Shown here: positions 31,562 through 63,933 of the stretch, piece after piece
Layout of the letters: every line of letters begins with the position of its first letter
Numbering within the stretch: position 1 is the stretch's first letter
Assembly: GCA_009777335.1 (NCBI GenBank)
Contig: WRMC01000009.1
Location: 48,482-112,481 of the forward strand
Reading direction: 5' to 3'
DNA length: 64,000 bases
DNA from: Treponema sp.
Lineage (GTDB): Bacteria > Spirochaetota > Spirochaetia > Treponematales > Breznakiellaceae
Made by a program: the position numbers and the translations under genes
The notes under the pieces: generated by a model
The model's input: the letters and a program-made list of their open reading frames with translations, nothing else
What the model was told of the DNA's origin: nothing
Database searches by the model: none

Positions 31562-32839
31562 TTGAATTACCATGCCTTTAAAAAGCCAAAAAAACTGAAA
31601 AACGGTAAGAAGGTCTATCGCTGGTACTATTACTGGATAGACGATACCGGAAAGCAGATCCAAAAGTCCTGCGGAACCAAGGTCAAAAACCGCCAGCAGG
31701 CTGAGGACTATATCCGCACCCTTCCCCCGCCGCCAAGGTCAGCCACGCCAGCCGATGGCAAGTCCAGCGGTATTTATGCAGTACCGGCCCGGCGGCAGAA
31801 TAACAACGACCTGCTGGTGCGGGAAATAGCCGAGACCATGTACCTTCCGGGGAGTCCGCACCTCCAGCGCCGCCAGCAACTCAAAAAATCAACGAGTAAA
31901 GAGGTCGCCATCGCAGGCAGGGTTTTTATGAAGCACATCGTGACGGTATGGGGAGATCGTATGCTCCGCTCCCTGGAACTGGACGAGGTTATGAATTACC
32001 TGTTTTCTGTGAAGCTCTCTGGCTCGTGGAAAAATCAATATATTTCACACCTGAATGAAATATACCAAGAAGCGCAATTCCTGGGCTGCAAGATATACAA
32101 GCCCACATTCCCATCCATCGGGCGTGAATATAACAAAGCGGACATTTTTTCAGAAAAGGAACTTGAGCAACTTTTCAAACCAGAGCATTTTTCCCATGAC
32201 TTTTATCTGTTTTTCCTGACGGCGCTTTCCGGCGGCCTCCGGCTGGGCGAGATACGAGGGCTCAGGGTGAAGCAGATCGTTTTTGAAATTAAGGCCGTTA
32301 TTATAGACGGCTTTATGAAAGACGATTATACCACCCGGACGGTTTACAATAAGCGAGGCACACCAGAACACCCGAAACTCCGTGTCGTCCCCTACCCCGA
32401 TTTTACCCTCGACCTGCTAAAGCAGCATATAGAGCGCTCCGGCGCAGGCGGCGATGACTTTGTTTTCACATATAACGATCTGCCGATATCGAAATCTATG
32501 GCATCAAGGGCTTTTACCGTGGCTTTGATAAATGCAGGGCTTACATGGGATATAGAAACCTTAAAAGAAAAGAAATACTGGAAAAACGGCCATATTACGA
32601 TAAAGCGCCATATTATCCCTGACGGACGGCGCTTCATCTCCCACTCGCTCCGGTATACCTACATCACCCGCATGAGCCGATATATGCCAGCCGAGGACTT
32701 GTTAAAGCTGACAGGTCACGATTCCAAGGGAATGGTCGATTACTACAACAGGACTAATTTGGAAATGCTACTCTCAAAAATCCCGAAGGTCGCAGATGCA
32801 ACCAGCGCCCTACTCCCGCAGGCTATTGGCAAAACTTAA
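31562..32839 (+). CDS. int: Phage integrase (tyrosine recombinase)
   Basis: 425 residues. The TTG start at 31562 is supported by GGAGG 6 nt upstream. N-terminal arm-binding part YRWYYYWIDDTGKQIQKSCGTK; core-binding region ~85-180; catalytic domain with R227 (GGLRLGEIRGL), H361-S-L-R364, H386 (TGHDSKG) and Y394/Y395 (VDYYNR). It integrates and excises the prophage at the tRNA-Pro site directly upstream. Transcription may come in part from the surviving tRNA promoter. No excisionase is obvious next to it, although a HTH_17 protein lies at 36797-37039. Confidence 0.93.
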   Translation: MNYHAFKKPKKLKNGKKVYRWYYYWIDDTGKQIQKSCGTKVKNRQQAEDYIRTLPPPPRSATPADGKSSGIYAVPARRQNNNDLLVREIAETMYLPGSPHLQRRQQLKKSTSKEVAIAGRVFMKHIVTVWGDRMLRSLELDEVMNYLFSVKLSGSWKNQYISHLNEIYQEAQFLGCKIYKPTFPSIGREYNKADIFSEKELEQLFKPEHFSHDFYLFFLTALSGGLRLGEIRGLRVKQIVFEIKAVIIDGFMKDDYTTRTVYNKRGTPEHPKLRVVPYPDFTLDLLKQHIERSGAGGDDFVFTYNDLPISKSMASRAFTVALINAGLTWDIETLKEKKYWKNGHITIKRHIIPDGRRFISHSLRYTYITRMSRYMPAEDLLKLTGHDSKGMVDYYNRTNLEMLLSKIPKVADATSALLPQAIGKT

Positions 32840-32842
32840 AAT

Positions 32843-32915
32843 TCGGGGAGAGGGGATTCGAACCCCTGATCTCCAGTTCCCAAAACTGGTGGACTAGCCA
32901 CTGTCCGACCCCCCG
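32843..32915 (-). tRNA. Phage-borne tRNA-Pro (anticodon TGG)
   Basis: Complete minus-strand cloverleaf, 73 nt: acceptor CGGGGGG/CTCCCCG (one G-T), D-stem GGAC/GTCC, anticodon stem CCAGT/ACTGG around TTTGGGA (anticodon TGG), T-arm AGGGG-TTCGAAT-CCCCT, discriminator A. It has the same anticodon as the interrupted host gene but a divergent body, so it is a phage gene that likely replaces the lost host tRNA. Confidence 0.95.
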
Positions 32916-34217: not shown

Positions 34218-36248
34218 ATGACTGCCACAGATACACTTTACCGAAATGAGGTCTTTTCAGGTGACATTGATTTTTTAGTGGAACACCTCGGCAAGATCAC
34301 CGATTCTCTGCACCATGAACTGCCCAGCGAATTTATAGAGCGGGTGCGCTATTTAACCAGCGACCTCACGCCGTTCCCTGGAAAGTTCTCCTTTGAGAAG
34401 TTCCCCTACTTCCGGGAGATCGTCGACTGCTTCAGTCCCATCGACCCCACGCAAGAAATAGTTTTAATGAAGGGCGCTCAAATGGGAGCCACCACCGCCG
34501 TCCTTGAGACCGTTCTGCTTTATAACATTATGAGTGATGCCAAGGCGCAGATGTACGTCACCGCAGACGCAGGGCTTATGAAGACCTCAGTGCAGGTGCG
34601 GATCGAAAAGATGATCGATAATGCCGGAGCCCGTGACCTTATATTTTCACAAAGCCGGAAACGCAAGGGCAGCCGGAACACAGGGGACACCGCCATCGCT
34701 AAAGAATACCCCGGCGGATACCTGCACTGCTTTGGAGGCCGCAGTCCGGCCCGGTTCCGTGGCATCTCCTACCCCTGCGCCCTGGCCGATGAGGTGGATG
34801 CATTTCCTGACTCTATTCCAAAAGAGGGAACGGTCATCGACCTCGTGCGGAACCGCACTAAAGCATACACAGGCAGCAAGCGTAAAATCCTCTGGACTTC
34901 CACGCCGCTTATAAAGCAGACATCAAAGGTCGATAAACTTTACCTTGACGGCGACCAGCGCAAATTTCTCGTGCCGTGCAAGCACTGCGGGACTCCCCAG
35001 GAACTGGTCTGGCATGGAAAAAATGAGGACGGCTATACCTGGGGAATTATATGGGAAAACGACGAAGACTCCAATCCTATACTGGAGACCGTGGCATACA
35101 AGTGCAGCAACCCGGACTGCGCCAAGACCATGAAGAACTATGACAAGGCCGTGATAATTCCACGCGGGGAATGGAAGCCCACCGCAAAGCCCATCGCTCC
35201 CAACCGCAGATCTTACCACGTCACGCCGATCTACAACCCGCCCGGTATGTACTCCTGGGAGGATATGGTTCTGCAGTGGGCAGAATGCTGGGACTTGAAA
35301 ACCAACCGCCTGAAGGATAAAGAGAAATACAGGGTGTTCAGAAATACCACCCAGGGCCTCACCTTCGAAGAGCTAGGCGGGAAACAAATCGAATATGAAA
35401 GAGCAATCCAGTTCCGGCGCACGGGCTTCATAATTACAAATGACGAGTCCGGCCTTATCGCCCGTGGCGTTCCCAACGATCTCGCCCTGCAGGATTCCGG
35501 CTCCCCTATCCTCATTATAGCAGCATCTGTCGATGTACAGAACGACAGGCTCTTCGTCGACGTGAAAGGTTACAGTGTGGGTGGTGTAACTTGGACTTTA
35601 GAGTTTATTGAATTGGAGGGGAACACCGCCGATTTTAATGGAGTATGGGATCGGCTTGATACCATTATTAGTGACAAGCGGTACATAGGAACGGACGGCA
35701 AGGTTTACCGGATACAAATTACCATGATCGACTCCGGCCATAATACCGAGTATGTATACGAATATGTCAAACGGCACTCCGGCGGCGTGTTTGCCTGTAA
35801 GGGCAAAGACTACCTGATCAACGGCGAGACATACCAATTCTTCAGTCCCAGCGCCCAGGAAAAAATCGGGTTTCGGAATGCCCTGCATATAAGTACCGGA
35901 AAATTAAAAGACAAGATTAGTAATGCCATGACCTCGTCGTTTTGGGTAACAGGCCAGCCCCAGCCGTGGTGGTATCCCAACTTCAGGGAAGATGCCCGTG
36001 ACGATTATTTCAAACAGTTTGAGGCCGAAAGCCGAGAGGAAAAAAGGGATGCTATTACTAAGCAGTTTCGGGGATATATTTGGAAGCAGAAATTCGGACA
36101 GGACAACCACGCCCTGGACTGTTATGTTTACAATTTAGCGGCGCTAGAGCTTGCCGCCGAATACTGGTGCAAGGAACACCTCGGCCTGCCAACGCTGGAC
36201 TGGACGGCCTTTTGGGAGCTTGCAAAGCAGGGCGAGTTTTATCAATAA
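34218..36248 (+). CDS. Terminase large subunit (lambda GpA family)
   Basis: 676 residues, normal for GpA-type terminases. ATPase: KGAQMGAT (residues 85-92, deviant Walker A) and ALADEVD (Walker B, D192-E193). A zinc-finger-like pair CKHC...CSNPDC lies around residue 255-300. The nuclease domain in the C-terminal half has VDVQNDRLFVDVKGYSVGG and a late FGQDNHALDCYVYNLAA. It translocates DNA into the prohead and cuts it. The GpA type predicts cos ends. Confidence 0.93.
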   Translation: MTATDTLYRNEVFSGDIDFLVEHLGKITDSLHHELPSEFIERVRYLTSDLTPFPGKFSFEKFPYFREIVDCFSPIDPTQEIVLMKGAQMGATTAVLETVLLYNIMSDAKAQMYVTADAGLMKTSVQVRIEKMIDNAGARDLIFSQSRKRKGSRNTGDTAIAKEYPGGYLHCFGGRSPARFRGISYPCALADEVDAFPDSIPKEGTVIDLVRNRTKAYTGSKRKILWTSTPLIKQTSKVDKLYLDGDQRKFLVPCKHCGTPQELVWHGKNEDGYTWGIIWENDEDSNPILETVAYKCSNPDCAKTMKNYDKAVIIPRGEWKPTAKPIAPNRRSYHVTPIYNPPGMYSWEDMVLQWAECWDLKTNRLKDKEKYRVFRNTTQGLTFEELGGKQIEYERAIQFRRTGFIITNDESGLIARGVPNDLALQDSGSPILIIAASVDVQNDRLFVDVKGYSVGGVTWTLEFIELEGNTADFNGVWDRLDTIISDKRYIGTDGKVYRIQITMIDSGHNTEYVYEYVKRHSGGVFACKGKDYLINGETYQFFSPSAQEKIGFRNALHISTGKLKDKISNAMTSSFWVTGQPQPWWYPNFREDARDDYFKQFEAESREEKRDAITKQFRGYIWKQKFGQDNHALDCYVYNLAALELAAEYWCKEHLGLPTLDWTAFWELAKQGEFYQ

Positions 36249-48534: not shown

Positions 48535-49998
48535 ATGTTACCAGCATCGGCAATATCCCGCGTCACAGGCGTGAACGTGGAATACCGCAACTTCAATGCA
48601 GGAGCTGCAGGGTTTCTACCGCAGCGCCTTGCTGTAATCGGTGTCGGCAATGACGATGCCGTTTACGAAACAAAAAAGCACGAGGCAATCGGATCGTCCG
48701 ATGCCATCGCCAGAAGGTACGGATACGGCTCGCCATTACACTTGGCGGCCCGGCAGCTATTTCCTGACGGTGGTGGAGGAGCGAATTTTCCTGTCACCTT
48801 CTTTCCTTTAAGGAAAGCCAGCGGGAGCGCCGCAGCCAAGGGCGCAGTAAGCTGCGAAGGACTGGCAACCGCAGCGGGAAGCGGCACGATATCTATCGGC
48901 GGCATCGATGTGGAATTTGCCATTCTCGAAGGACAGACACCAGCCGAAATACTGGCCGCTATGAAAGAGCGCATCGCAGGCAAACTTGAAATGCCTGTCT
49001 TTGCCGGAGCCATCGCGGACGATGAGCTTCCGCTCACTTCCAAGTGGAGCGGGGACACCGGAAATGACATCACCATCGAGATCGAAGTCAAAGCCTCCGG
49101 CGTTACCTTCGAAATCGTAAAAATGAAAGGTGGCGCTGTAGACCCGGATGTTGACCCTTCACTTAAAGCTATCGGCGGGATTTGGGAGTCCTTTATACTC
49201 TCCTGTTTTTCGTATAACAAACCGTCCAGGCTCAACACATACCTGACCTTCGGGGAAGGGCGCTGGAGTGAGATGGAAAAAATGGGATGCCTTGTCGCCC
49301 ACGGCTGCACGGACGATTACGAAACCCGCACCGCCCTGACCGATGAGCGCAAACACGACTTCATCAACTTTTTAGTCCCAGGCGTGGGAAGCCCTGAAAT
49401 CCCCTTTGTTATTGCCGCCCGCGGAATTGTAAACATCATGAACGTGGCAAACAGCAACCCGCCGCATAACAACTACGGTGTGTTAACCGGACTCAAGGCC
49501 GGCCCGGACGAGGCACAGGAATCATACCTTGTAAGAAACAACTCAATCGGCAAGGGGGCCAGTACCGGACTCAAGAGCGGAAGCGTTATCGAGCTAAACG
49601 ATATCGTGACCATGTGGCATCCCGATGACGAGTCCATAAAGTCCCGCCGCTATGTGGTGGATATGATCAAACTCCAGAATGTGGTCTTTAACGTAAGGAT
49701 GATTATGGAAGCCTCGACGGTAAAGGGCGCTCCACTTGTGCCGGATATAAACCCAACCAAAAACCCAAGGGCAATCCAGCCCAAGACCATCAGGACGGCA
49801 ATGATGAACCTCTCCAACGATCTGGCAGAGTTCACCATCCTTGCAGAATCGGAATTTACCAAGAAAAATCTCGTGGTAAAAATCAGCAGCATGAACCCGA
49901 AGCGCATGGACATCCAATTTCCGTGCAAACTTTCAGGGAACGTCGAGGTTACTAGCACCGACATATTCTTTGGCTTCTTCCTGGGTGAAGCGGCTTAA
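48535..49998 (+). CDS. Contractile tail sheath protein (Mu gpL-like)
   Basis: 487 residues, size of Mu gpL. Marks include FLPQRLAVIGVGNDDAVYETKKHEAIGSSDAIARRYGYGSPLHLAARQLFP, then the GDTGNDITIEIEV region and a conserved C-terminal domain with PKTIRTAMMNLSNDLAEFTILAESEFTKKNLVVKI. Presence of a sheath shows the phage is a myovirus type with contractile tail. Confidence 0.9.
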   Translation: MLPASAISRVTGVNVEYRNFNAGAAGFLPQRLAVIGVGNDDAVYETKKHEAIGSSDAIARRYGYGSPLHLAARQLFPDGGGGANFPVTFFPLRKASGSAAAKGAVSCEGLATAAGSGTISIGGIDVEFAILEGQTPAEILAAMKERIAGKLEMPVFAGAIADDELPLTSKWSGDTGNDITIEIEVKASGVTFEIVKMKGGAVDPDVDPSLKAIGGIWESFILSCFSYNKPSRLNTYLTFGEGRWSEMEKMGCLVAHGCTDDYETRTALTDERKHDFINFLVPGVGSPEIPFVIAARGIVNIMNVANSNPPHNNYGVLTGLKAGPDEAQESYLVRNNSIGKGASTGLKSGSVIELNDIVTMWHPDDESIKSRRYVVDMIKLQNVVFNVRMIMEASTVKGAPLVPDINPTKNPRAIQPKTIRTAMMNLSNDLAEFTILAESEFTKKNLVVKISSMNPKRMDIQFPCKLSGNVEVTSTDIFFGFFLGEAA

Positions 49999-50882: not shown

Positions 50883-51082
50883 TCTCCGAAGTGGCGGTCG
50901 GAGGCAAGCGTCAGCGCAAATTGGGAATAGAATGGGTGGCGTACCAATTGAGACAAATATATGCAGACTACAACTTAAGCATTCCCATGCAAAAAATCTC
51001 CATAGAGGAGATTCGCTTCTTTTATATGCCAATGATAGAGAGTCTGTGCCGGATTCAAAGGGCTTCAAGGGATGGCAAGTAA
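50412..51082 (+). CDS. Tail assembly chaperone, -1 frameshift long form
   Basis: A -1 shift at the heptamer T TTT TTA (50867-50873, zero-frame codons CTT TTT TTA) leads from residue 154 into a 69-residue frame ending at 51082, giving 223 residues; the extension contains GIEWVAYQLRQIYADYNL. A 7-bp stem (TCTCCGA 50883-50889 / TCGGAGG 50898-50904, one T-G) with 8-nt loop starts 9 nt after the heptamer. The -1 frame begins exactly there and has no ribosome site of its own. This is the G/GT-type arrangement of tailed phages. Confidence 0.78.
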
Positions 51083-53921
51083 ATATGCGATGGAGACAGT
51101 TTTTTCACTCATCGATAAGGTCAGCCGTCCCCTTGACAAGATCGGCATAAAATCAAAAACCGTTACGAAAAAACTCCAGAAAGATTTTGTTGCCGCACAG
51201 AAACGCCTTGACAACTTTGGCAAGGCTATCGTCAAGTGGGGAAAACGTGCGGCGCTTGCCGCCGCCGCCGCAGTAACGGCCTGGGCAGGATTAGGTGTAA
51301 AAAACGCACTCACTCTTGCGGACACGATGGCAAAGATAGGCCACGCCGCAAATATCACAGGCCCACCGCTGGAGCAATTACAAAAAGACCTAACTAATGT
51401 CGCAAATAGCGCAGGGCTTGCGGTTAACGAACTGGCAGAGATTGCAAACACATCAATTCTTTCAGGTATCGCTGCCGAAAGCGCCGCAGAATTTTCATCT
51501 ATTGTCGCAAGGACAGCCAGAATAACCGATGCATCTTCGGATCAAATTGTCGATGGCCTGACAACTGTTCTGAACGCTTATGGGATGAGCGGCGATGAAG
51601 CGGCACGTATTTCCGGCATGATGATCAACGCCAATAGATTTGGCAAAACATCATTTCAAGATATGGCAACCGGAATGCGGAATGTAATTCCAGCCGCCGC
51701 CGCCCTTGGAGTAAGCACCGAGGACGTATTCGCATCCATTACAACGCTGACGGCCCAGGGCCTGACAACCAGAGATGCGATGAGAACTATGGGCGATTCA
51801 TTCAGCGCAATTAAAAGACCGTCAAGGGAAGCTGCCGCTCTTGCGCAGCGCCTTGGAATAGATTTTTCCGAGGCGGCTTTACGCAGTAAGGGCTTCGCTG
51901 GCTTCATGGAAGATATACGGCAAAGGACAGGTGGCAACACCCAATTATTAGAGACATTATTCGGCAGCGAGAGAACAGCACGGTCGATGAGCATTCTCAC
52001 AACAACGGGCGCAGAAGCTTTTAGCGAAGCCCTCGGCATAATGTCAAACTCACTGGAAACAGTAGACACTGAATTCGCAAGGATAACCAATACCCCCGCA
52101 GAACGCTGGCGCATGGCTGTCAATAAAATCCAGAACGCTGGAGTCAGCCTGGGTGCAACTATCCTCCCCGTGGTGGAGCGGGTGATCGGCAAGGTCACCG
52201 AGATCGCCGACAGGCTCACCCAGGTAGACTTTAGCCAGTACACCGGAATAATTGATAAAGTATTCCAAAAAATAGAACGGCTGGCCGGAGGCTTTATAAA
52301 TATCCTGAAGCTGGCGTGGAATTTCCGAGGCGTGATAATCGCCGTGGTCGCCGCCCTCGCCCTGTATCACGGAGCGCTTATGGCAGTGGCGCTTTACACA
52401 AAGCTATATGGAGTGATCAAAGGCGTGGCCACAGCCGCAACCTTCGCATTCACCCTTGCAACGAAAGGAAGCGCCGCCGCTCTTGCAGTACTCAAGGCCG
52501 GAACTATTGCATATAACATTGTTTCAAAGGCATTTGCAATCGCCGCCAAAATAGCCACGGCAGCGCAGTGGGCGCTGAACATTGCAATGATGGCTAATCC
52601 GATAGGGCTTATTATAGCGGCGGTTATCGCTCTGATCGCAGTCATTGTTTTACTTGCCAAAAACTGGAAAAAGATCACCACCGCTATAAAAAACAATACT
52701 GAAAAAGTACTCGCGGTCTTGACTATTCTATTTTTTCCCCTCGGCATGATTATTTCGATGATAAGGGAGATTGTTTCTAATTGGGAAAATATAAAAAACG
52801 CAATTTCCGGCTCCGGCCTTCTCGATGCAATAAAAAACATCGGTGCATCTATCAAGAACTTTATACAACCCGCAATCGACTGGTTTATCGGCGTGTGGGA
52901 AAAAGTAAAAGCATCTGTTTCCGGCTTTTTCAGAACCATAGGAGACGCAATTAAAAACTTTTTCACTCCGGTAATAAACTGGATCACCGGAGTATGGCAG
53001 GCGGTAAGCAATGCGGTGGTCGGAGTCTTTAGAAATATCTGGAATGCCGTCAGCACTTTCCTTGAGCCGATCTTCTCGTGGATATCGGAAACATGGCAAA
53101 AAATAGTCTCGTTCTTTAAGGACAGCGCCCTGATAAATGCAATCAAAGTCATCGGCGGGACTTTGCTTTCCGGCATCCTCGCTCCAATACAGGGACTTTT
53201 AGAAATACTCTCCTATATACCCGGACTCGGACACCTCGCCGGAAGGGGAAGGGATAAAATACAGGAACTCCGCAACAACCTGACGGGAAGGGGATCAGAA
53301 GCCAATGCCGTGCCTGCGGCAGCAGCCGAGGAGCTTTCCCCGCTGGGCAACACGCCGCAGGTGAACGTCACACCGGATGTGAATTTTGCAGACTTCGATT
53401 TATCTGGCGCTATGGGGCCAACAGCCGGACGCTCAGGGCTTCACGGCGTGGTCGATATTTCCGGCGGCGGCGGAACGCCTGTTATTCCAAACTATACCAG
53501 CGGAGATACCCCTGGAACCTACACAGCCACAGCAACGAGGACACCCTCCATATCCGTACAGGAGACAATCAATACCGCCGCTTCCGGCATGACAGCCGTT
53601 CTACAGGAAATATTGGCATCCACCAGAGCCATAGAAGCGACCTCGGTGCAGGTGCTTACAGCGCTGAACGTTCCGGCCACGATCACCCTCACCGTTCCCC
53701 AGCGCCCCATAAACTCCGGCAGGCCGGAGCGTGAGCGGGCAGACAGGGAAGATCCCCGCAATATCCCGCCTGTAACCAGCGATGAGCGCATGGCATACAG
53801 TATGAGGGAAACCAGGGAAACCCTGGGCATCGAAGTGTCCGCCTCCCGTGGAACCGAAGCACGGATCGTGCGCCGCCCACGCTCGCCAAATATCCAACTC
53901 GTTAATTCGGGAGGGAACTAA
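51072..53921 (+). CDS. Tape measure protein (TP901 type)
   Basis: 949 residues. N-terminal coiled region, then PhageMin_Tail/TP901 core (SSDQIVDGLTTVLNAYGMSGDEAARISGMM...FGKTSFQDMATGMRNVIPAAAALGVSTEDVFASITTLTAQG), and hydrophobic segments in the middle (residues ~415-555: GVIIAVVAALALYHGALMAVALY, MANPIGLIIAAVIALIAVIVLLA), followed by W-rich repeats and a Pro/Gly C-terminus. Its length sets tail length (about 140 nm at 0.15 nm/residue, a rule of thumb). It overlaps the long chaperone form by 11 bp. Confidence 0.93.
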   Translation: MASKYAMETVFSLIDKVSRPLDKIGIKSKTVTKKLQKDFVAAQKRLDNFGKAIVKWGKRAALAAAAAVTAWAGLGVKNALTLADTMAKIGHAANITGPPLEQLQKDLTNVANSAGLAVNELAEIANTSILSGIAAESAAEFSSIVARTARITDASSDQIVDGLTTVLNAYGMSGDEAARISGMMINANRFGKTSFQDMATGMRNVIPAAAALGVSTEDVFASITTLTAQGLTTRDAMRTMGDSFSAIKRPSREAAALAQRLGIDFSEAALRSKGFAGFMEDIRQRTGGNTQLLETLFGSERTARSMSILTTTGAEAFSEALGIMSNSLETVDTEFARITNTPAERWRMAVNKIQNAGVSLGATILPVVERVIGKVTEIADRLTQVDFSQYTGIIDKVFQKIERLAGGFINILKLAWNFRGVIIAVVAALALYHGALMAVALYTKLYGVIKGVATAATFAFTLATKGSAAALAVLKAGTIAYNIVSKAFAIAAKIATAAQWALNIAMMANPIGLIIAAVIALIAVIVLLAKNWKKITTAIKNNTEKVLAVLTILFFPLGMIISMIREIVSNWENIKNAISGSGLLDAIKNIGASIKNFIQPAIDWFIGVWEKVKASVSGFFRTIGDAIKNFFTPVINWITGVWQAVSNAVVGVFRNIWNAVSTFLEPIFSWISETWQKIVSFFKDSALINAIKVIGGTLLSGILAPIQGLLEILSYIPGLGHLAGRGRDKIQELRNNLTGRGSEANAVPAAAAEELSPLGNTPQVNVTPDVNFADFDLSGAMGPTAGRSGLHGVVDISGGGGTPVIPNYTSGDTPGTYTATATRTPSISVQETINTAASGMTAVLQEILASTRAIEATSVQVLTALNVPATITLTVPQRPINSGRPERERADREDPRNIPPVTSDERMAYSMRETRETLGIEVSASRGTEARIVRRPRSPNIQLVNSGGN

Positions 53922-57354: not shown

Positions 57355-57567
57355 ATGGCAATGTCACCAGCGGGAATGGCAGACGAAATTTTCAAAGCGA
57401 TGGAGGCTGTTTACGGCGACATGACGGAGGGTAAAGCAGAGACCATGAAATACCTGACCACATTCTCTACAGGAATAATAAAACACCTGATAGAAAATAC
57501 AGACGTTATCCCAGGGACTCTTGTAGTTTCCGGCGTTCCGGTAACAGGCACAGGAAAGGTAACATGA
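57355..57567 (+). CDS. Small baseplate-region protein (70 aa)
   Basis: 70 residues from ATG 57355 (TAGGAGTTT upstream). MAMSPAGMADEIFKAMEAVYGD...VIPGTLVVSGVPVTGTGKVT; helical first half, glycine/valine C-terminus. No family recognised. It overlaps the gp46 start by 4 bp. Confidence 0.62.
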   Translation: MAMSPAGMADEIFKAMEAVYGDMTEGKAETMKYLTTFSTGIIKHLIENTDVIPGTLVVSGVPVTGTGKVT

Positions 57568-58034
57568 ACCTACAAACCTTTGAAGGCGACCTGCTGTTAT
57601 TCGATACCGTGGACGGCGGTGACGTTGCCATTGCTGATGGCTTTTTTATCAGCGACAGGGCGCTTGACACCGCCGTATATCTCTCCCTCTTCGGCGGGAA
57701 TAAAGAGGACAACGGCAAGGTAAAAAACCGGAAAACATGGTGGGGAAATACCCTGCGTGGAGTCAGTGAAAACCAGAAGCTGGTTTCACGCTTCCAGGCG
57801 ATTATATTCGGCCTGCCCATGACCACTAAAAACATTCTGGACGCAGAGGAGGCGGCACGGCTTGACCTTGAGTGGCTTATCAGCGAAAAGCTGGCCGATG
57901 AGATTGTTGCGGACGGCAGAGCGGTTTCAAACAAGCGCTTTGACCTAAAGATACAAATAACATCAGGGGAAAAAATTATTTTTAAGAATACCTATGCAGT
58001 ACCCTGGAAGGCAGGTTCAAATGTCGCAGTTTAA
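57564..58034 (+). CDS. Baseplate wedge protein (Mu gp46-like)
   Basis: 156 residues. Gp46 signature: ALDTAVYLSLFGGNKEDNGKVKNRKTWWGNTLRG, then the C-terminal lysozyme-family-like wedge portion (ARLDLEWLISEKLADEI). It lies directly before gp47 as in Mu and P2-like phages, and overlaps it by 14 bp. Confidence 0.85.
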   Translation: MNLQTFEGDLLLFDTVDGGDVAIADGFFISDRALDTAVYLSLFGGNKEDNGKVKNRKTWWGNTLRGVSENQKLVSRFQAIIFGLPMTTKNILDAEEAARLDLEWLISEKLADEIVADGRAVSNKRFDLKIQITSGEKIIFKNTYAVPWKAGSNVAV

Positions 58035-59238
58035 AAATAAAACCATAGAAGAAATTAGAGACCTCATAATCAATGCGGTAAAAAGCAAATTTAATGTGGT
58101 GTTCAGGCTTATTTCAAAGTCTTTTCTATTTACTATAGCAACCGTTATGGCAGGAGTTTTCGTTACCTGCTATAAACAAATCGCCTGGGTTTTTCTTCAG
58201 TTATTCCCTGAAAGTGCATACTGGAAAACGGTCACTGCGCTGGGTATACCAATCCGGCCACTGGTAAAATGGGGAGTCCTCATCGGAGTAGGGGAGCCAC
58301 GCCAGGGAACACAGTGGAGGGGAATAATCAACGTCACCACCTCCGGCTCCGGCACTCTTGTTGCAGGCGCACAGCTAAAAAGCGACACCACAGGGAGCCT
58401 GTACATAACCGAGGAGAGCGTGGCCACGGACAGCCCTGTGATAAGCGTTCCGGCGCTTTGTGTTGATACAGGCCGCACAGGGAACCTAGAAAAAGGCGAT
58501 ATTATCAGCTTTGTATCACCGCTCGGAAATGTCCAAAAGGACGCCACTGTGGGCGCTGTGAGCGCTTACGGGCAAGATTCCGAAACCGAGTCCGAGTACA
58601 GGGCTCGTGTTGTCAGGCGGTTCCGCTCCCCGCCGCAGGGAGGCTCCCTGTCCGATTATCAAATATGGTCTTGCGACGTGCCGGGTGTTCTGAACGCATA
58701 CCCATACAGCGACCCGGACTCGGCAGCGGGTGTCCTTGTATTCGTTGCAGGCGCTCCAGCGCAGTTTCCACACCGCATACCTACCTCCGACCTTTTAAAG
58801 CAGGTCGGCGAAGCCTGCACCTATGATCCTATTACCGGAAGGCAGAACCGCAAGCCCGTGACAGCCGTCCTCGACCCAGCGTTTGACCTATCATACGAAA
58901 ACATCCGCCCGATCACCCGCAGGCTGTACACGGTAAGAGTTAACGGGATGGTCGGAGTGCCTGTTTTGGAATTTGCAAACATAGCCAAGCCAGCCATTGA
59001 AAATTATTTTCTTGAGCGTGAGCCGTATATCCGAGGGCTTTCCGATGACAATAACAAACTCAACGCTGTATCAAGAAACAATGTCACCAGCGTGGTGGAT
59101 CAGATGTCTATATCGCTCAAGGCCGAGTTTGACAGCGTTTCCCTTGAGCGTAACGGCGCAGTAATAGCCAACGACACCCTCGGCATGGGAGAGCTTGCCG
59201 AGCTTCAGCAGCTTTATGTGAACGGAGTGCCTGTATGA
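58021..59238 (+). CDS. Baseplate J-like protein (Mu gp47)
   Basis: 405 residues from ATG 58021. BaseplateJ features: QGTQWRGIINVTTSGSGTLVAGAQLKSDTTGSLYITEES, ETESEYRARVVRRFRSPPQGGSLSDYQIWSCDVPGVLNAYPY and VLVFVAGAP. It forms part of the wedge around the tube. Upstream frame up to 57994 belongs to gp46. A hydrophobic patch near residue 38-54 (FTIATVMAGVFVTCYKQIAWVFL) is unusual for this family. Confidence 0.85.
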   Translation: MSQFKNKTIEEIRDLIINAVKSKFNVVFRLISKSFLFTIATVMAGVFVTCYKQIAWVFLQLFPESAYWKTVTALGIPIRPLVKWGVLIGVGEPRQGTQWRGIINVTTSGSGTLVAGAQLKSDTTGSLYITEESVATDSPVISVPALCVDTGRTGNLEKGDIISFVSPLGNVQKDATVGAVSAYGQDSETESEYRARVVRRFRSPPQGGSLSDYQIWSCDVPGVLNAYPYSDPDSAAGVLVFVAGAPAQFPHRIPTSDLLKQVGEACTYDPITGRQNRKPVTAVLDPAFDLSYENIRPITRRLYTVRVNGMVGVPVLEFANIAKPAIENYFLEREPYIRGLSDDNNKLNAVSRNNVTSVVDQMSISLKAEFDSVSLERNGAVIANDTLGMGELAELQQLYVNGVPV

Positions 59239-59948
59239 GCGGAAAATTCTTTGATGCCATAAAAACGTTATTTCCACGATCACGAGCCTTTGAGTTATTT
59301 GCGGATAATTCAAAGCGCAGGCTTGTCAAAGGATTTTCAGAGCTGCCGGAAAATATCCGCACAGAACTAGAACTTGTTTACTTCGACCTATTTCCAGACA
59401 CAACCCGTTTCCCTGAACGGTGGGAAGAGGTCTTTGCGCTTTTTTTCACGGATGCCGAATTGCCGAAGCGCCGGAACATAATCGATGCCATGTGGAAAAT
59501 GATCTCCGGCCACCAGGGACTTGAGTTTTTACAAACTATGCTGCACAGCATCGATAAAGGACTGCGTGTCGTGGAAAATATCCCTGTCAGCAACCCCCGG
59601 CACTCCGGCATTACATTAATAGCTGTCTGTGGACACCCAAAAATGAAATGCGGGAACCGGAAAGCCGTCTGCGGATACCGCGAAGGACGCGAGGACTTTA
59701 TACCGTCCATTATAAAAAATGACGTGACCACAGAATATAACATTCCCGAAGACAGCAGATATTGGGAAAACTGCTTTTTTATCTGTGCATCGGTAAGGCG
59801 AAGCCCTCGCAGAAATATACTCTATGTGGAGCCATACAAACTAAGCGCCGTCTGGCGCAACTTTATTGAATTTTTAATTCTCAAGGTAAAACCAGCGCAT
59901 ACAACCGCCATCGTCTTTATCGACTGGCAAGAAGGAGAAACGATATGA
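59235..59948 (+). CDS. Baseplate/tail protein, gp48-like
   Basis: 237 residues, overlapping gp47 by 4 bp. FPRSRAFELFADNSKRRLVKGFSELPENIRTELELVYFDLFPDTTRFPERWEEVFAL is the DUF2313/gp48-like start (small helical wedge component). The C-terminus has NPRHSGITLIAVCGHPKMKCG and SPRRNILYVEPYKLSAVWRNFIEF. It links the baseplate to the fibre genes that follow. Confidence 0.75.
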   Translation: MSGKFFDAIKTLFPRSRAFELFADNSKRRLVKGFSELPENIRTELELVYFDLFPDTTRFPERWEEVFALFFTDAELPKRRNIIDAMWKMISGHQGLEFLQTMLHSIDKGLRVVENIPVSNPRHSGITLIAVCGHPKMKCGNRKAVCGYREGREDFIPSIIKNDVTTEYNIPEDSRYWENCFFICASVRRSPRRNILYVEPYKLSAVWRNFIEFLILKVKPAHTTAIVFIDWQEGETI

Positions 59949-60718
59949 TAAAACTTGATTTTTCGTATTCGGTCTATGTAGACATCAATCACCCAAACCA
60001 CCCAGGCGGTGCGGCTATAAATACCTCATCGGATAATGAAGAGGATGGAACCCCCATCTTCGCCGATCTGGTGAACGACCTGCGTGGATGGATGGAGGCG
60101 GCTATAGTAGACGCTCGCAAGTCCTTTGTAGTCAGCGGGAACACGGAGCGCCCAGGCGCATCGGATGTGCTGGACGCATTAAAAGTAATTATAGCGAGGA
60201 TGATAGACAACAACGTCTCCCCGCAGATGATTTTATCACGGCTCATAACCGTGGACGGAGTAGGGAGTGGCCTCGATGCCGACCTGCTCGGTGGATACCC
60301 GCCGGAATACTACCTCCGGTCAGGAGCCACAGGGTTTATGGTAACCCACGTTTCAGGCCCCGCCACGGTTATTCCCTGGCCAGAACTGAACATCGAATAT
60401 GTCCCCACTGGCACTTACGCTGCAATTATTACAGCCCACGGAAATTATCCCGATTATATCTCGTTTCCCTATGAGGCAAAAAATGACGGCCTCCATGTTT
60501 ACCCGCATCGGCTTGAGAACGGGAAGCTCGTGGCCGGAACCGGAATGAAAAAATGGGGAATTGACAAATGGGGAACAGGTAAAACTTATGTCCCCGGAAG
60601 GAAATGGGGAATCGGAACATGGGGAAGCGATAAATGGAGCGCTTCAAGATCGGTAGGTGGAGAAGCGTGGGGAGTTTATGGCCCCATGCCCATCAATATA
60701 CAAGTCAAGGAGGTATAA
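59945..60718 (+). CDS. Tail fibre protein with Trp-Gly repeats
   Basis: 257 residues. Tail-fibre signature SRLITVDGVGSGLDADLLGGYPPEYYLRSG near residues 98-127. The C-terminal ~60 residues hold spaced Trp-Gly units (KWG-ID, KWG-TG, KWG-IG, TWG-SD, AWG-VY), suggesting a repetitive beta region. It overlaps gp48 by 4 bp. It probably attaches the fibre or tip carrying the variable protein. Confidence 0.75.
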   Translation: MIKLDFSYSVYVDINHPNHPGGAAINTSSDNEEDGTPIFADLVNDLRGWMEAAIVDARKSFVVSGNTERPGASDVLDALKVIIARMIDNNVSPQMILSRLITVDGVGSGLDADLLGGYPPEYYLRSGATGFMVTHVSGPATVIPWPELNIEYVPTGTYAAIITAHGNYPDYISFPYEAKNDGLHVYPHRLENGKLVAGTGMKKWGIDKWGTGKTYVPGRKWGIGTWGSDKWSASRSVGGEAWGVYGPMPINIQVKEV

Positions 60719-60720
60719 GC

Positions 60721-60999
60721 ATGGTAGGATTGCCACTCAGCTTATCCACAAAACAAGACTGGCTCAACGCAGTAGATTATGCGAAAGCCAAAGGAGAAGG
60801 GAAAGGCACGATGCAAACACGCCTTTCAGAATTAAAGAACAATTCGAAGATGCTGGTTCTAAAGGCCGGAGCCGAAAAAAAGCCGCCCGAAGAGCAGACT
60901 CCAGAGGACTTCAAGTCCGTGGATGATCCGAACTGTGAAAAAATCCGGCTCGGTTTCACGGATGCCGAAATCGATCAGCTTATAGGAGGGCTTAATTAA
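60721..60999 (+). CDS. Small tail-fibre-associated protein
   Basis: 92 residues from ATG 60721 (CAAGGAGGTATAAGC upstream). Helical and charged (KQDWLNAVDYAKAKGEGKGTMQTRLSELKNNSKMLVLKAG...KIRLGFTDAEIDQLIGGLN). No family recognised; location suggests a fibre-assembly chaperone or a subunit holding the variable tip. Its stop overlaps the next ATG (TAATG), i.e. coupled translation with the DGR target. Confidence 0.65.
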   Translation: MVGLPLSLSTKQDWLNAVDYAKAKGEGKGTMQTRLSELKNNSKMLVLKAGAEKKPPEEQTPEDFKSVDDPNCEKIRLGFTDAEIDQLIGGLN

Positions 61000-62186
61000 T
61001 GCTCAAACTTTTTAAAGACCTTGTAGACGACGCGACTGTCGCAACAATCCCCGAAAGCTTAGGACGCCAAACGCCCTATTTAACAAAACGTGATCCCTTC
61101 CTGTATGCAGCCAATCGCCTGGTACTCGCCGAGGGCTGTTCGTTCAACATCTTTGACGGCCAGGCCTGGCGGCAAATTGTAAATAGGGCAGCGATAGACT
61201 TTAACCCGGCCAGTATGCTGGACACCGGAGGCCAGTTTAACGTGGGCTGGGATTATTATGTATATATCTGTCTGGACAGCGAAGGGGAGCCTGTGATTGT
61301 AGTTTCCGCAAACTCCACATTCCCCTTCGGATATACAGCACAGAACTCCCGGAAGATCGGCGGTTTCCATTACGGGCATATCCGGCACGTCTCTGATGAC
61401 GGGCTTTATATCCCCGTGGACTCTGCCGGAACGAAGCGTGGCACATTCGGAACGATCTGGCAGCAGAACGTGAGCGTGGGTATAATTCCAAACTCCGTGT
61501 GGGACTTGGTAAACCGCCCAGGCTGTGCGCCAGAGGGTATGGTAAAGGTGGGCAAGCATTGGGTGGATATATACCTCTCCAGCGCCGCCGAAGCCATAGT
61601 CCTGGAAGGCTCCGGCCTCAGCATTGCTTCCGGCAAATTACAGTCCAAGTATGGCCAGATTCCGGTCACCGGAACCGAAGGTCTGAACTGGTACGGCTTC
61701 GCAGAACTTGCAGGGCTGGCCGGAAAAAGAATGCTCTCCTATGGGGAGTGGATCGCCGCCGCCCGCGATAACCCGCAGGGTGAGAACGGCGCTGATAACT
61801 TTGGCTGGACTAAGACTACCAACACCGCCCGATACCGCACAGGGTGCAACGTCGATGCAAACGGAGGCTTTATCGCCGGAGGCGGCGTGAAGCCCTTTGC
61901 AGTCAGCGCCCTGAACATCGTGGATGCTGTAGGAAACGTCTTTGAATGGCTCGACGAGTTTACCTACAGGCCGGATGGTACAGGCAACACCTGGGCGTAC
62001 CACGATGTTCTAGGCGCAGGCAAAGGGCAGGCTTACCTATACCACAACCAGGGACTTGTCGCCCTCCGTGCTGGTGGGCGCTGGCACAGTGGCGTGCACG
62101 CTGGGTGTCGTTGCGTGCTTGCGATCGACTTCCCGTGGAACGTGATCACGCACGATGGTGTCCGGCTGGCCTGTGACGCAGCGTAA
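60999..62186 (+). CDS. DGR-diversified tail-tip protein (C-type-lectin/FGE fold)
   Basis: 395 residues. N-terminal ~190 residues look like a tail-fibre shaft (QRYSF-like beta strands: YVYICLDSEGEPVIVVSANSTFPFGYTAQN). Residues ~195-395 are a CLec/formylglycine-enzyme-type domain: YGEWIAAARDNPQ, GGGVKPFAVSALNIVDAVGNVFEWLDE (311-320) and the ending GGRW...GVRLACD. The 3' 106 bp are the variable repeat, covering residues 358-393. Variable positions are 361, 363, 364, 367, 374, 376, 377, 383, 385 and 386, with 381 unchanged from the template. Presumed receptor-binding protein like Mtd of Bordetella phage BPP-1. Confidence 0.9.
   Translation: MLKLFKDLVDDATVATIPESLGRQTPYLTKRDPFLYAANRLVLAEGCSFNIFDGQAWRQIVNRAAIDFNPASMLDTGGQFNVGWDYYVYICLDSEGEPVIVVSANSTFPFGYTAQNSRKIGGFHYGHIRHVSDDGLYIPVDSAGTKRGTFGTIWQQNVSVGIIPNSVWDLVNRPGCAPEGMVKVGKHWVDIYLSSAAEAIVLEGSGLSIASGKLQSKYGQIPVTGTEGLNWYGFAELAGLAGKRMLSYGEWIAAARDNPQGENGADNFGWTKTTNTARYRTGCNVDANGGFIAGGGVKPFAVSALNIVDAVGNVFEWLDEFTYRPDGTGNTWAYHDVLGAGKGQAYLYHNQGLVALRAGGRWHSGVHAGCRCVLAIDFPWNVITHDGVRLACDAA
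62072..62177 (+). repeat. DGR variable repeat (VR)
   Basis: 106 bp aligned without gaps to the template at 62616-62721. The 12 differences are all at template A (A to C five or six times, to G and T otherwise) and occur only in codons that are AAC or AAT in the template. The last 21 bp (GGTGTCC...TGTGAC) are identical, the expected initiation-of-mutagenic-homing region. Confidence 0.95.
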
Positions 62187-62194
62187 GCTGCGTC
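62175..62194 (+). promoter_or_regulatory. DGR hairpin at the VR 3' end
   Basis: Perfect inverted repeat: stem GACGCAGC (62175-62182), loop GTAA, stem GCTGCGTC (62187-62194). It starts in the last three VR bases; the stop codon TAA lies in the loop. An 8-bp GC-rich stem with tetraloop after the VR is a known cis element of DGR retrohoming. Confidence 0.8.
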
Positions 62195-62203
62195 TGGTAT
62201 CTG

Positions 62204-62611
62204 ATGCTCGGAAATTCTGGTTTTTATTCTGAGGCAGCGAGGTTTGAGCGAGCCCCGCAAGGGAATGTCGCCAACCTCGCATTGTTTCAGAAGTTCACAG
62301 ATTTTATAGATTATTTTGAGCCAATCGTCATGAGGTTTCCACGGTACGAGCAGAATATATTATGTGCAAACATAAGAAGCTGTATGTACCGAATAATGGA
62401 ATTAATAATTGTGACTAACGCAAGCAAGAACCGTGTCGCTGGCTGGCATTATATAGACGTGCAAATAGAAATATTACGCACCTATATACGCCGGGCAAGG
62501 GCGAAAGGCTCAAAGTACCTTTCGAAGAGGAGCCATGAGACGGCTGCAAAAAAACTCTCGGAAGTAGGTCGCATATTAGGCGGCCTGATAAACAAGACAA
62601 AGGGTGGCTGA
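62204..62611 (+). CDS. avd: DGR accessory variability determinant
   Basis: 135 residues. The core ALFQKFTDFIDYFEPIVMRFPRYEQNILCANIRSCMYRIMELIIVTNAS...IEILRTYIRRARAKG...SEVGRILGGLINKTKGG is the Avd/23S-insertion four-helix bundle; strongly basic at the end, as Avd binds the RT and template RNA as a pentamer. The start is uncertain: the first ~25 residues have no homologous look and the ATG at 62204 has a poor ribosome site. Located between variable gene and TR, the order of the Bordetella phage DGR. Confidence 0.85.
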   Translation: MLGNSGFYSEAARFERAPQGNVANLALFQKFTDFIDYFEPIVMRFPRYEQNILCANIRSCMYRIMELIIVTNASKNRVAGWHYIDVQIEILRTYIRRARAKGSKYLSKRSHETAAKKLSEVGRILGGLINKTKGG

Positions 62612-62615
62612 TGCA

Positions 62616-62721
62616 TGGTGGGAACTGGAACAATGGCGTGAACGCTGGGTGTCGTTGCGTGAATGCGAACAACTTCCCGTGGAACGTGAACACGAACAAT
62701 GGTGTCCGGCTGGCCTGTGAC
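62616..62721 (+). repeat. DGR template repeat (TR)
   Basis: 106-bp template. In the VR frame it contains 11 AAY codons (AAC or AAT) and no other A except one ACG and the final GAC. It starts 4 bp after the avd stop. Base A62615, just outside, may be an additional mutable position (C in VR). It is transcribed as RNA and reverse-transcribed with adenine-specific errors. Confidence 0.95.
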
Positions 62722-62883
62722 AATTTTCTTTATTGCAAAATAAAGATGTGTTTACGATTACGGTCGTGGGCGCAGTGGCAATCCTAAAGGGAATAACGTC
62801 AGATCGGCAATCCTCTCCTATGCGACAGGAGAAAGTAAGCTGGTGACCGCGCCTACGGGCGCGGCACTTTTAATAGAGGAATC
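62722..62883 (+). ncRNA. Structured spacer of the DGR RNA between TR and RT
   Basis: The spacer after TR is expected to be needed for cDNA priming. Perfect hairpins: TCTTTATT/AATAAAGA with GCAA tetraloop (62727-62746), TCTCCT/AGGAGA (62814-62832) and CCGCGCC/GGCGCGG with TACG loop (62847-62864), plus a direct repeat GGCAATCCT at 62777 and 62806. AGAGGA (62875-62880) is the ribosome site of the RT. Confidence 0.7.
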
Positions 62884-63933
62884 ATGGGTAAATTGTACGA
62901 GCGGATATGCGAATTTGAGAATCTATATGAAGCCGCAATAAAAGCCGCTCGTGGCAAGCGGTATAAGAATTCTGTCCTGCGCTTTTTCAACGAGGGACTT
63001 GAGGACAATCTATTTCAAATCCAGCAGGAGCTTATGGATAAAACATACCGCCTCGGCGAGTTTAGAAAGTTCATCGTGTATGAACCCAAGAAGCGGGAAA
63101 TAGCAGCCCTGCCATTCCGAGACCGGATTGTTCAAATAGCGCTTTGCAATATCATCGAGCCGCTATTTGACACCCGGTATATTTTCGATACCTATGCCTG
63201 CAGGGAAGGCAAGGGAACCCATGCGGCAGCGAGACGGCTTTCTTATTTTATAGGGAAGCCGGACGCACGGCTGTACCTCAAGTGCGACATACACAAGTAC
63301 TTTCACTCCATCGATATAGAGCGCTTGATGGACGTAATTAAAAAGCGGTATATACCGGACGACGATGATGTTATGTGGCTCATCGATTTGATATTAAGGG
63401 CAGACTACCAGGGAGCGGGAATAAAAATCGGTAATCGGTTCTCCCAGCTTGCCGCCAATGCGTTTCTTGCGGAACTGGACTTTCAATTAAAAGTGCGCCT
63501 GCAGGTTCCGTACTATATCAGGTACATGGACGATTTCATTGTCCTTGGCAATTCGAAGGCAAGGCTCAAAGCCATCCTGAAGATCGCCGAGGCATTTGTA
63601 GAGGGAAGGCTGGGACTAAAGCTGAATGATAAAACACGGATTGACTCCGTGCGGAACGGCATCGACTTTGTAGGGTTCAGGGTGTTTCCCCGGAATAAAA
63701 TAATAAAGAAGGGGAGCATGAACCGGACAGCCGGAGTGTTCCGAGCATGGAGAAACGGAAAGATGACTGATGAAAAATATCTGGCTTCAATTGGCTCGCG
63801 GTGCGGCCACGCAGTGGGAACGGCCTCATACCAGTTCTATAACAAGATTTTACTCAAGTCCCTTCAGGTGGCTTTATCTCCCGATAGAATTGGGGGGGGG
63901 GGGGGGAAAAGAAGGACTCTTATACCCTTTTAG
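62884..63933 (+). CDS. DGR reverse transcriptase
   Basis: 349 residues as read. RT motifs: KPDARLYLKCD135IHKYFHSID (catalytic D), the DGR hallmark IGNRFSQ (182-188, SQ where group II and retroviral RTs have SP), YIRYMDD (YMDD 214-217), FVGFRVF and a C-terminal thumb. It copies TR RNA with adenine mutagenesis. The sequence from about residue 337 runs into a 15-G homopolymer (63892-63906) and low-complexity DNA, so the real C-terminus is probably lost or corrupted. Confidence 0.95.
   Translation: MGKLYERICEFENLYEAAIKAARGKRYKNSVLRFFNEGLEDNLFQIQQELMDKTYRLGEFRKFIVYEPKKREIAALPFRDRIVQIALCNIIEPLFDTRYIFDTYACREGKGTHAAARRLSYFIGKPDARLYLKCDIHKYFHSIDIERLMDVIKKRYIPDDDDVMWLIDLILRADYQGAGIKIGNRFSQLAANAFLAELDFQLKVRLQVPYYIRYMDDFIVLGNSKARLKAILKIAEAFVEGRLGLKLNDKTRIDSVRNGIDFVGFRVFPRNKIIKKGSMNRTAGVFRAWRNGKMTDEKYLASIGSRCGHAVGTASYQFYNKILLKSLQVALSPDRIGGGGGKRRTLIPF

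Follow-up and report, generated by a model that had tools for sequence, protein, structure and literature searches.

A BPP-1-type diversity-generating retroelement in a predicted contractile-tailed spirochaete prophage, with a hairpin spanning the stop codon of its variable gene

The stretch of DNA analysed here (the window; 64,000 nucleotides from a Treponema sp. draft genome, G000, of 2.16 Mb) is the last 64 kb of a contig of 112481 bases (C9), and the window end is the contig end. Close to that end lies the cassette of a diversity-generating retroelement (DGR), with all of its parts on the + strand. The variable protein (VP) gene (60999..62186) encodes 395 aa and a homologue of Mtd of Bordetella phage BPP-1, which is predicted to be a tail-tip receptor-binding protein. 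The 3' end of this gene holds the variable repeat (VR, 62072..62177), a direct repeat that is 89% identical to the template repeat (TR, 62616..62721), and the VR lies at the C-terminus of a C-type-lectin target. A perfect hairpin, GACGCAGC-GTAA-GCTGCGTC (62175..62194), whose loop contains the VP stop codon (62184-62186), is a putative homing hairpin. The gene for the accessory variability determinant (Avd, 62204..62611; 135 aa) was recognised through PF22296 (5.8e-25), NCBIfam NF033474 (above cut-off) and the PDB structure of BPP-1 Avd (1e-5). After the TR comes a spacer (62722..62883) that, going by its position and by analogy with BPP-1, would supply the 3' part of the DGR RNA, and then the reverse transcriptase gene (RT, 62884..63933). 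An A+T-rich hairpin at 62727-62746 (TCTTTATT-GCAA-AATAAAGA, -4.7 kcal/mol, z -1.79) may be part of this RNA; similar hairpins were seen 3' of the TR in four related loci (L003, L006, L088 and L101). The order VP-avd-TR-RT, which an earlier note on this DNA had likened to that of BPP-1, was found in both cassettes.

The VR and TR (106 nt) differ at 12 positions, all 12 of them TR adenines; with 24 adenines in the 106 bases of the TR, the probability of this by chance is about (24/106)^12, near 2e-8, by our own arithmetic. The RT matched PF00078 (4.8e-18) and phrog_1423 (1.4e-107), and BPP-1 RT (8ub7_A) stood out among its relatives in the PDB with 181 bits, against 65 for the runner-up. Both motifs that the earlier note had read in it, IGNRFSQ and YMDD, are present. 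In a quick tree with long branches, the window RT and 57 other DGR RTs (58 rows) were split from four group II rows with a Shimodaira-Hasegawa-like approximate likelihood-ratio (SH-aLRT) support of 100, so the RT does not fall outside the DGR clade, the outcome that had been named beforehand as counting against it. A group II intron or defence RT was rejected as an identity: the NCBIfam matches were all below their cut-offs, the tree set group II RTs apart, and the PADLOC matches were to other RT models, of which a generic RT model was best. The window's genome gave one further RT match (L207, G000:C18:278-700), interrupted by an internal stop, and a 41%-identical RT was present in another genome of the same genus (L209, G194:C132); a quick scan detected no adenine-biased repeat pair beside either of these.

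The Avd and RT reading frames are open. However, a poly-G run near 63893 is followed by poly-C near the contig end (63890-64000), which looks like an assembly artefact that gives the RT frame a false end; the open reading frame (ORF) beyond approximately 63890 belongs to this artefact, and its final ~15 codons are probably not real. The RT is nearly complete all the same, because the RT of L003, which is 86% identical, ends within about ten residues of the same point; by comparison with L003 and L006, the missing C-terminus amounts to about ten residues or fewer. Hence the earlier description of a complete DGR held for the presence and place of VP, Avd, TR and RT, but not for the last part of the RT.

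Structure prediction of the VP, as the earlier note had proposed, returned a model with the Mtd fold beyond the lectin domain, and 11 variable positions coincide between the VP and BPP-1 Mtd. On gene position, modelled fold and coinciding variable positions, the VP is predicted to be the receptor-binding protein of a phage. Its host is probably a spirochaete, and the DGRs of Treponema denticola have TvpA-like predicted lipoproteins as targets and have shown no link to phage genes (PMC4891356). Since TvpA is itself a C-type-lectin target of a spirochaete DGR and shares that fold with the VP, the target might instead be a cell-surface protein of this kind. This was rejected as most improbable: the Mtd match spans VP residues 6-395, whereas TvpA matches residues 172-394, the lectin part only; baseplate genes lie directly upstream of the VP; and by sequence, in which form alone signals were considered, there is no N-terminal lipobox, because the first cysteine is residue 47. 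Among the relatives, the VPs of L004 and L005 were nearly identical in the C-terminal part and different in the N-terminal part, which suggests that the presumed tail-attachment region was exchanged.

The cassette resembles that of BPP-1 in its order, in the Mtd fold and the coinciding positions, and in a related RT and Avd, but is distant from it, as the VP is approximately 29% identical over 79% and the RT 39% identical. BPP-1 is a podophage, while the tail of the window's prophage is predicted to be contractile. Nearly the same layout was found in phage YPCBV-1, where the tail end comprises baseplate V, gp46, gp47, DUF2313, two small genes, a Mtd-like VP, Avd and RT; its VP is only 36% identical to that of the window, and its host, going by the phage name, is Chromohalobacter. 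The nearest RT in the phage collection (41%) came from Bacillus phage BalMu-1, where it also lies late in the genome with contractile-tail genes, but where no VP match was obtained at E 1e-5. DGRs with which phages diversify tail proteins are well documented (PMC8144416), and as a DGR the cassette is one more of a known type. No spirochaete phage DGR was found in the open-access DGR literature as surveyed by listings, although the element described here may be among those catalogued by Roux et al. 2021.

Relatives were scanned for a repeat at the VP end, base identity being ignored, at 192 loci (the window plus 191 fetched relatives), of which 184 had a VP stop; the remaining 8 VP frames run off the locus, and some records represent the same genome in two collections (e.g., L019/L112). 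A repeat was present in 145 of the 184 loci. Across these, 1750 of 1828 mismatches fell at adenines of the 3' copy and 15 at adenines of the 5' copy, adenine making up 21% of the bases in the 3' copy. At least 80% of mismatches were at adenines in 141 of the 145, the exceptions being L060, L092, L116 and L142. The other 39 loci had no repeat; some are at a contig end, and others (e.g., L009, L013 and L014) lacked it despite ~6 kb of room.

Among 93 pairs of relatives that were at least 85% identical, six were identical throughout and are likely to derive from one source each. Eight other pairs, though not identical over their whole length, differed by less than 1% outside the repeats; in total over these, the VR differed at 112 of 196 TR-adenine sites and at 8 of 759 other VR sites, the TR at 11 sites, and the rest of the sequence at 29 of 11376. 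Within the lineage of the window's phage, the last 150 nt of the VP gene were compared with the preceding 1050 nt. L249 and L250 had 19 differences in the last 150 nt, all at TR adenines, and one upstream; an invariant VR, the other outcome named beforehand as adverse, was therefore not observed in these relatives. L092 and L093 had 10 differences, all at TR adenines, and none upstream; L223 and L226 had 18, of which 16 were at TR adenines, and 13 upstream; and for L242/L248 all 19 differences were at TR adenines. This concentration at TR adenines indicates, on sequence comparison, that close kin of the window's phage diversify their VR. The TRs of the near-identical L092 and L093 phages differed at five non-adenine sites, where the VRs retain the older bases; either the changed TR has not yet been copied into the VR, or there was an assembly mix-up. 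Additionally, a single contig of 45619 bases holds L011, L200 and L201; its VP lies at one end and a pair of VR/TR-like copies at the opposite end, as might result from a circular phage genome opened inside its DGR.

Taken as a whole, the locus is very probably a BPP-1-type DGR on a predicted contractile-tailed spirochaete prophage, varying the lectin-like tip of a predicted receptor-binding protein. Copying of the TR RNA by the RT with Avd would be error-prone at adenines, and the resulting cDNA would probably replace the VR, varying the lectin-like tip of the VP and leaving the rest fixed. Transcription, reverse transcription and homing are presumed for the window's phage; the variable tip may bind the host surface, and the benefit would be to follow changing or different spirochaete surfaces. 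Two points weigh against this reading: the contig terminates inside the RT, and the search found no copy of the window's own phage carrying a different VR, the sole other copy being the same assembly in IMG/VR. The VR could have been diversified in the past by a cassette that no longer works in this prophage, whose right part lies off the contig and whose RT end is lost in the artefact; moreover, three relatives (L009, L013 and L014) have Mtd but no DGR nearby. We consider such silencing improbable, given that decay would leave mismatches elsewhere than at adenines and none of the 12 is so placed, and that the Avd and RT frames have stayed open.

The three Mtd homologues without a nearby TR (L009, 5995-7185; L013, 6001-7200; L014, 5929-7116), all in spirochaete genomes, are either remnants or fixed tail proteins. 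That of L009, from Gracilinema caldarium, is the second Mtd in a genome that also holds a DGR-bearing Mtd; it was considered as an additional target for the TR that this genome carries on contig C74, and rejected, having many mismatches that are not at adenines.

The unexpected feature of the cassette is the hairpin at the VP stop codon. The 3' end of the VR carries a G+C-rich inverted repeat (62175-62194) with an 8-bp stem, which starts three bases inside the VR and encloses the stop codon TAA within its loop GTAA; folded as single-stranded DNA it gave -10.6 kcal/mol (z -4.64). In BPP-1 an inverted repeat just 3' of the VR is needed for efficient homing, changing its GAAA loop to CTTT brings homing near background, and deleting the 4-bp spacer lowers homing (PMC3240598); reconstitution in E. 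coli indicated that the inverted repeat is important but not strictly required (PMC12875486). The BPP-1 hairpin likewise has 8 bp, but starts on the final base of the stop codon, whereas here the stop codon is inside the loop. The hairpins of the phage DGRs presented in that BPP-1 study were described as G+C-rich stems of 7-10 bp with GRNA loops, 4-34 bp after the VR (PMC3240598), and with its GTAA loop and its start inside the VR the window hairpin departs from this rule of Guo et al. 2011, which does not define DGRs as such; VRs in the window's lineage nevertheless diversify. The nearest precedent found lies in nanoarchaeal DGRs, where hairpins with GRA loops occur inside the target gene (PMC4372165, PMC5006420); in DUSEL4 (PMC4372165) the hairpin is similarly constrained as both protein and DNA, but its loop is in frame, while in the window the loop holds the stop codon and the 3' arm is non-coding. 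A stop-codon hairpin of this kind was not found in the portions of the DGR hairpin and cruciform literature consulted, which included PMC3240598, PMC5006420, PMC4372165 and PMC3521204.

All 15 of the first lineage loci had a perfect stem of 5 bp or more whose loop overlaps the VP stop, with ten different stems by our own count. This set comprised the 11 rows of one starred node in the RT tree, L092 (a near-copy of L093), and L011, L101 and L104, which were added as VP relatives after hairpins were already known in part of the data. Swapping flanks among loci gave a mean of 3.1 of 15 (maximum 13, some flanks being near-identical), and letter-shuffled flanks produced a stop hairpin in 1.7% of cases. 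Among 301 other ORF stops from these sources it occurred at 4, and among 104 other Mtd-DGR loci at 1, both sets including spurious ORFs and near-copies. On the RT tree, the stop hairpin is carried by all 11 rows of the starred node but is absent from all 7 rows of the sister node. A cleaner test came from a later scan and genome search, which yielded 32 loci, four of them running off the end; 22 of the 28 with a complete VP end carry the hairpin, with stems that include GCAAATGC/GCATTTGC and GCAAACGC/GCGTTTGC. In other Mtd DGRs a stem of at least 6 bp was found near the stop in 27 of 94 loci, 20 of them with a GRNA loop; in the spirochaete clade this was so for 12 of 25, all of them over the stop and none with a GRNA loop.

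By analogy with BPP-1, we infer that the stop-codon hairpin would take the role of the homing hairpin, as a variant that typifies this phage lineage. Several observations run counter to this: six of the 28 later loci have no such hairpin (L232, L235, L240, L253, L242 and L248); two of these, L242 and L248, have diversified even so; the L006 hairpin is weaker and folds no better than shuffles (z -0.83); and the VP tree requires four changes of the trait. Diversification in L242/L248 without a perfect stop hairpin would also agree with a structure that serves RNA, as a terminator, a translation-stop element or a coupling element between VP and avd; so would its position across the stop codon and the CTGTTTT-like stretch behind it in several relatives. 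A role of this sort appears possible but rather unlikely, for the window hairpin is absent from eight terminator-like sites, hairpins at other ORF stops in the same sources are rare (the 4 of 301 above), the structure is located where BPP-1 needs its homing hairpin (PMC3240598), and L014, which belongs to the VP clade and has no DGR nearby, has none. The terminator version was rejected on the first of these points, and the eight sites are themselves roughly double the mean for shuffled sequence. Many lineage members (L010, L012, L088, L104 and others) have a CTGTTTT- or CTGGTAT-like stretch 3' of the 3' arm. Returning to homing, we give roughly even credence to the broader proposal that the spirochaete-phage lineage has rebuilt its DGR homing site, with a target-marking hairpin built into the end of the variable gene such that the 5' arm codes the last residues, the loop is the stop codon and the 3' arm matches the coding arm in whatever form it has taken.

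The cassette follows a series of phage genes, those with coordinates below all on the + strand. A tyrosine integrase (31562..32839; PF00589, 4.3e-13) is followed by a GpA-type terminase large subunit (34218..36248; PF05876, 1.1e-53; PF20454, 5.8e-41), a tail sheath indicating a contractile tail (48535..49998; phrog_165, 7.4e-81), a tape-measure-type minor tail protein (51072..53921; PF10145, 1.3e-28), a gp46-like baseplate protein (57564..58034; PF07409, 2.5e-5, below its cut-off; phrog_180 baseplate wedge, 1.6e-18), a baseplate J-like protein (57994..59238; PF04865, 8.8e-27) and a possible tail-fibre gene upstream of the VP (59945..60718), with a weak match to phrog_26525 tail fiber (0.0004). 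A W-G-rich repeat (KWGIDKWGTGK.., 60536-60649) forms the end of the gene preceding the VP. Genes for a baseplate hub, a head maturation protease, capsid E and a lambda-type portal were also found upstream. IMG/VR lists a provirus of the same assembly with a length of 32372 bases, of which 7935 were compared and were identical to the window; by its length, its start computes to 31562. The integrase adjoins the 3' end of a tRNA-Pro(TGG) on the minus strand (32843-32915), for which the draft genome gave one match, and phage genes also lie across this tRNA.

On its right side the prophage extends past the end of the contig, and no MuA-type transposase was detected among the larger ORFs scanned in 31562-63933. 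The earlier label of a Mu-type phage fits the tail, which is Mu-like, but not the tyrosine integrase, GpA-type terminase, lambda-type portal and capsid E. Downstream of the RT, L003 (6063-8967) has a D12 adenine methylase and a PAPS-reductase-domain gene, and L006 (8914-13633) has a D12 adenine methylase in two ORFs, a PAPS-reductase-domain gene and two more DNA methylases; the RT-adjacent D12 methylase of L003 had no match in G000.

A spirochaete host, as supposed in the earlier note, was supported. FlaA (PF04620), which we take to be specific to the spirochaete lineage, had three matches in the window's genome and none in 14 control genomes. Among named genome records in the VP clade (30 rows; L006-L014), eight of nine were Spirochaetota; the ninth, L007, is labelled Anaerolineae, comes from the same run as the Spirochaeta metagenome-assembled genome (MAG) of L008, and is possibly mis-binned. 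Gracilinema caldarium, the MAG of L009, is classified in Breznakiellaceae, Spirochaetota. Among 195 genomes searched in this family, G000 and G012 had a full-length VP, which none of the three other members of the window's genus did. Across the order (390 genomes), six genomes held a full-length VP (G000, G012, G221, G293, G307 and G335), and ten more gave partial or weak matches.

To our knowledge, few phages of spirochaetes are known, and the cassette places a tropism-switching type of DGR in this group of phages. The requirements of a DGR target are known almost only from BPP-1, which needs a GRNA-type loop and a spacer; the lineage described here keeps the stem and changes the loop and the spacing. 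If the proposed homing site is real, the loop read by the DGR machinery here would be the stop codon, with zero distance between it and the VR. Its many natural stems with matching arms amount to a natural test, and would make target recognition directly testable in a second lineage.

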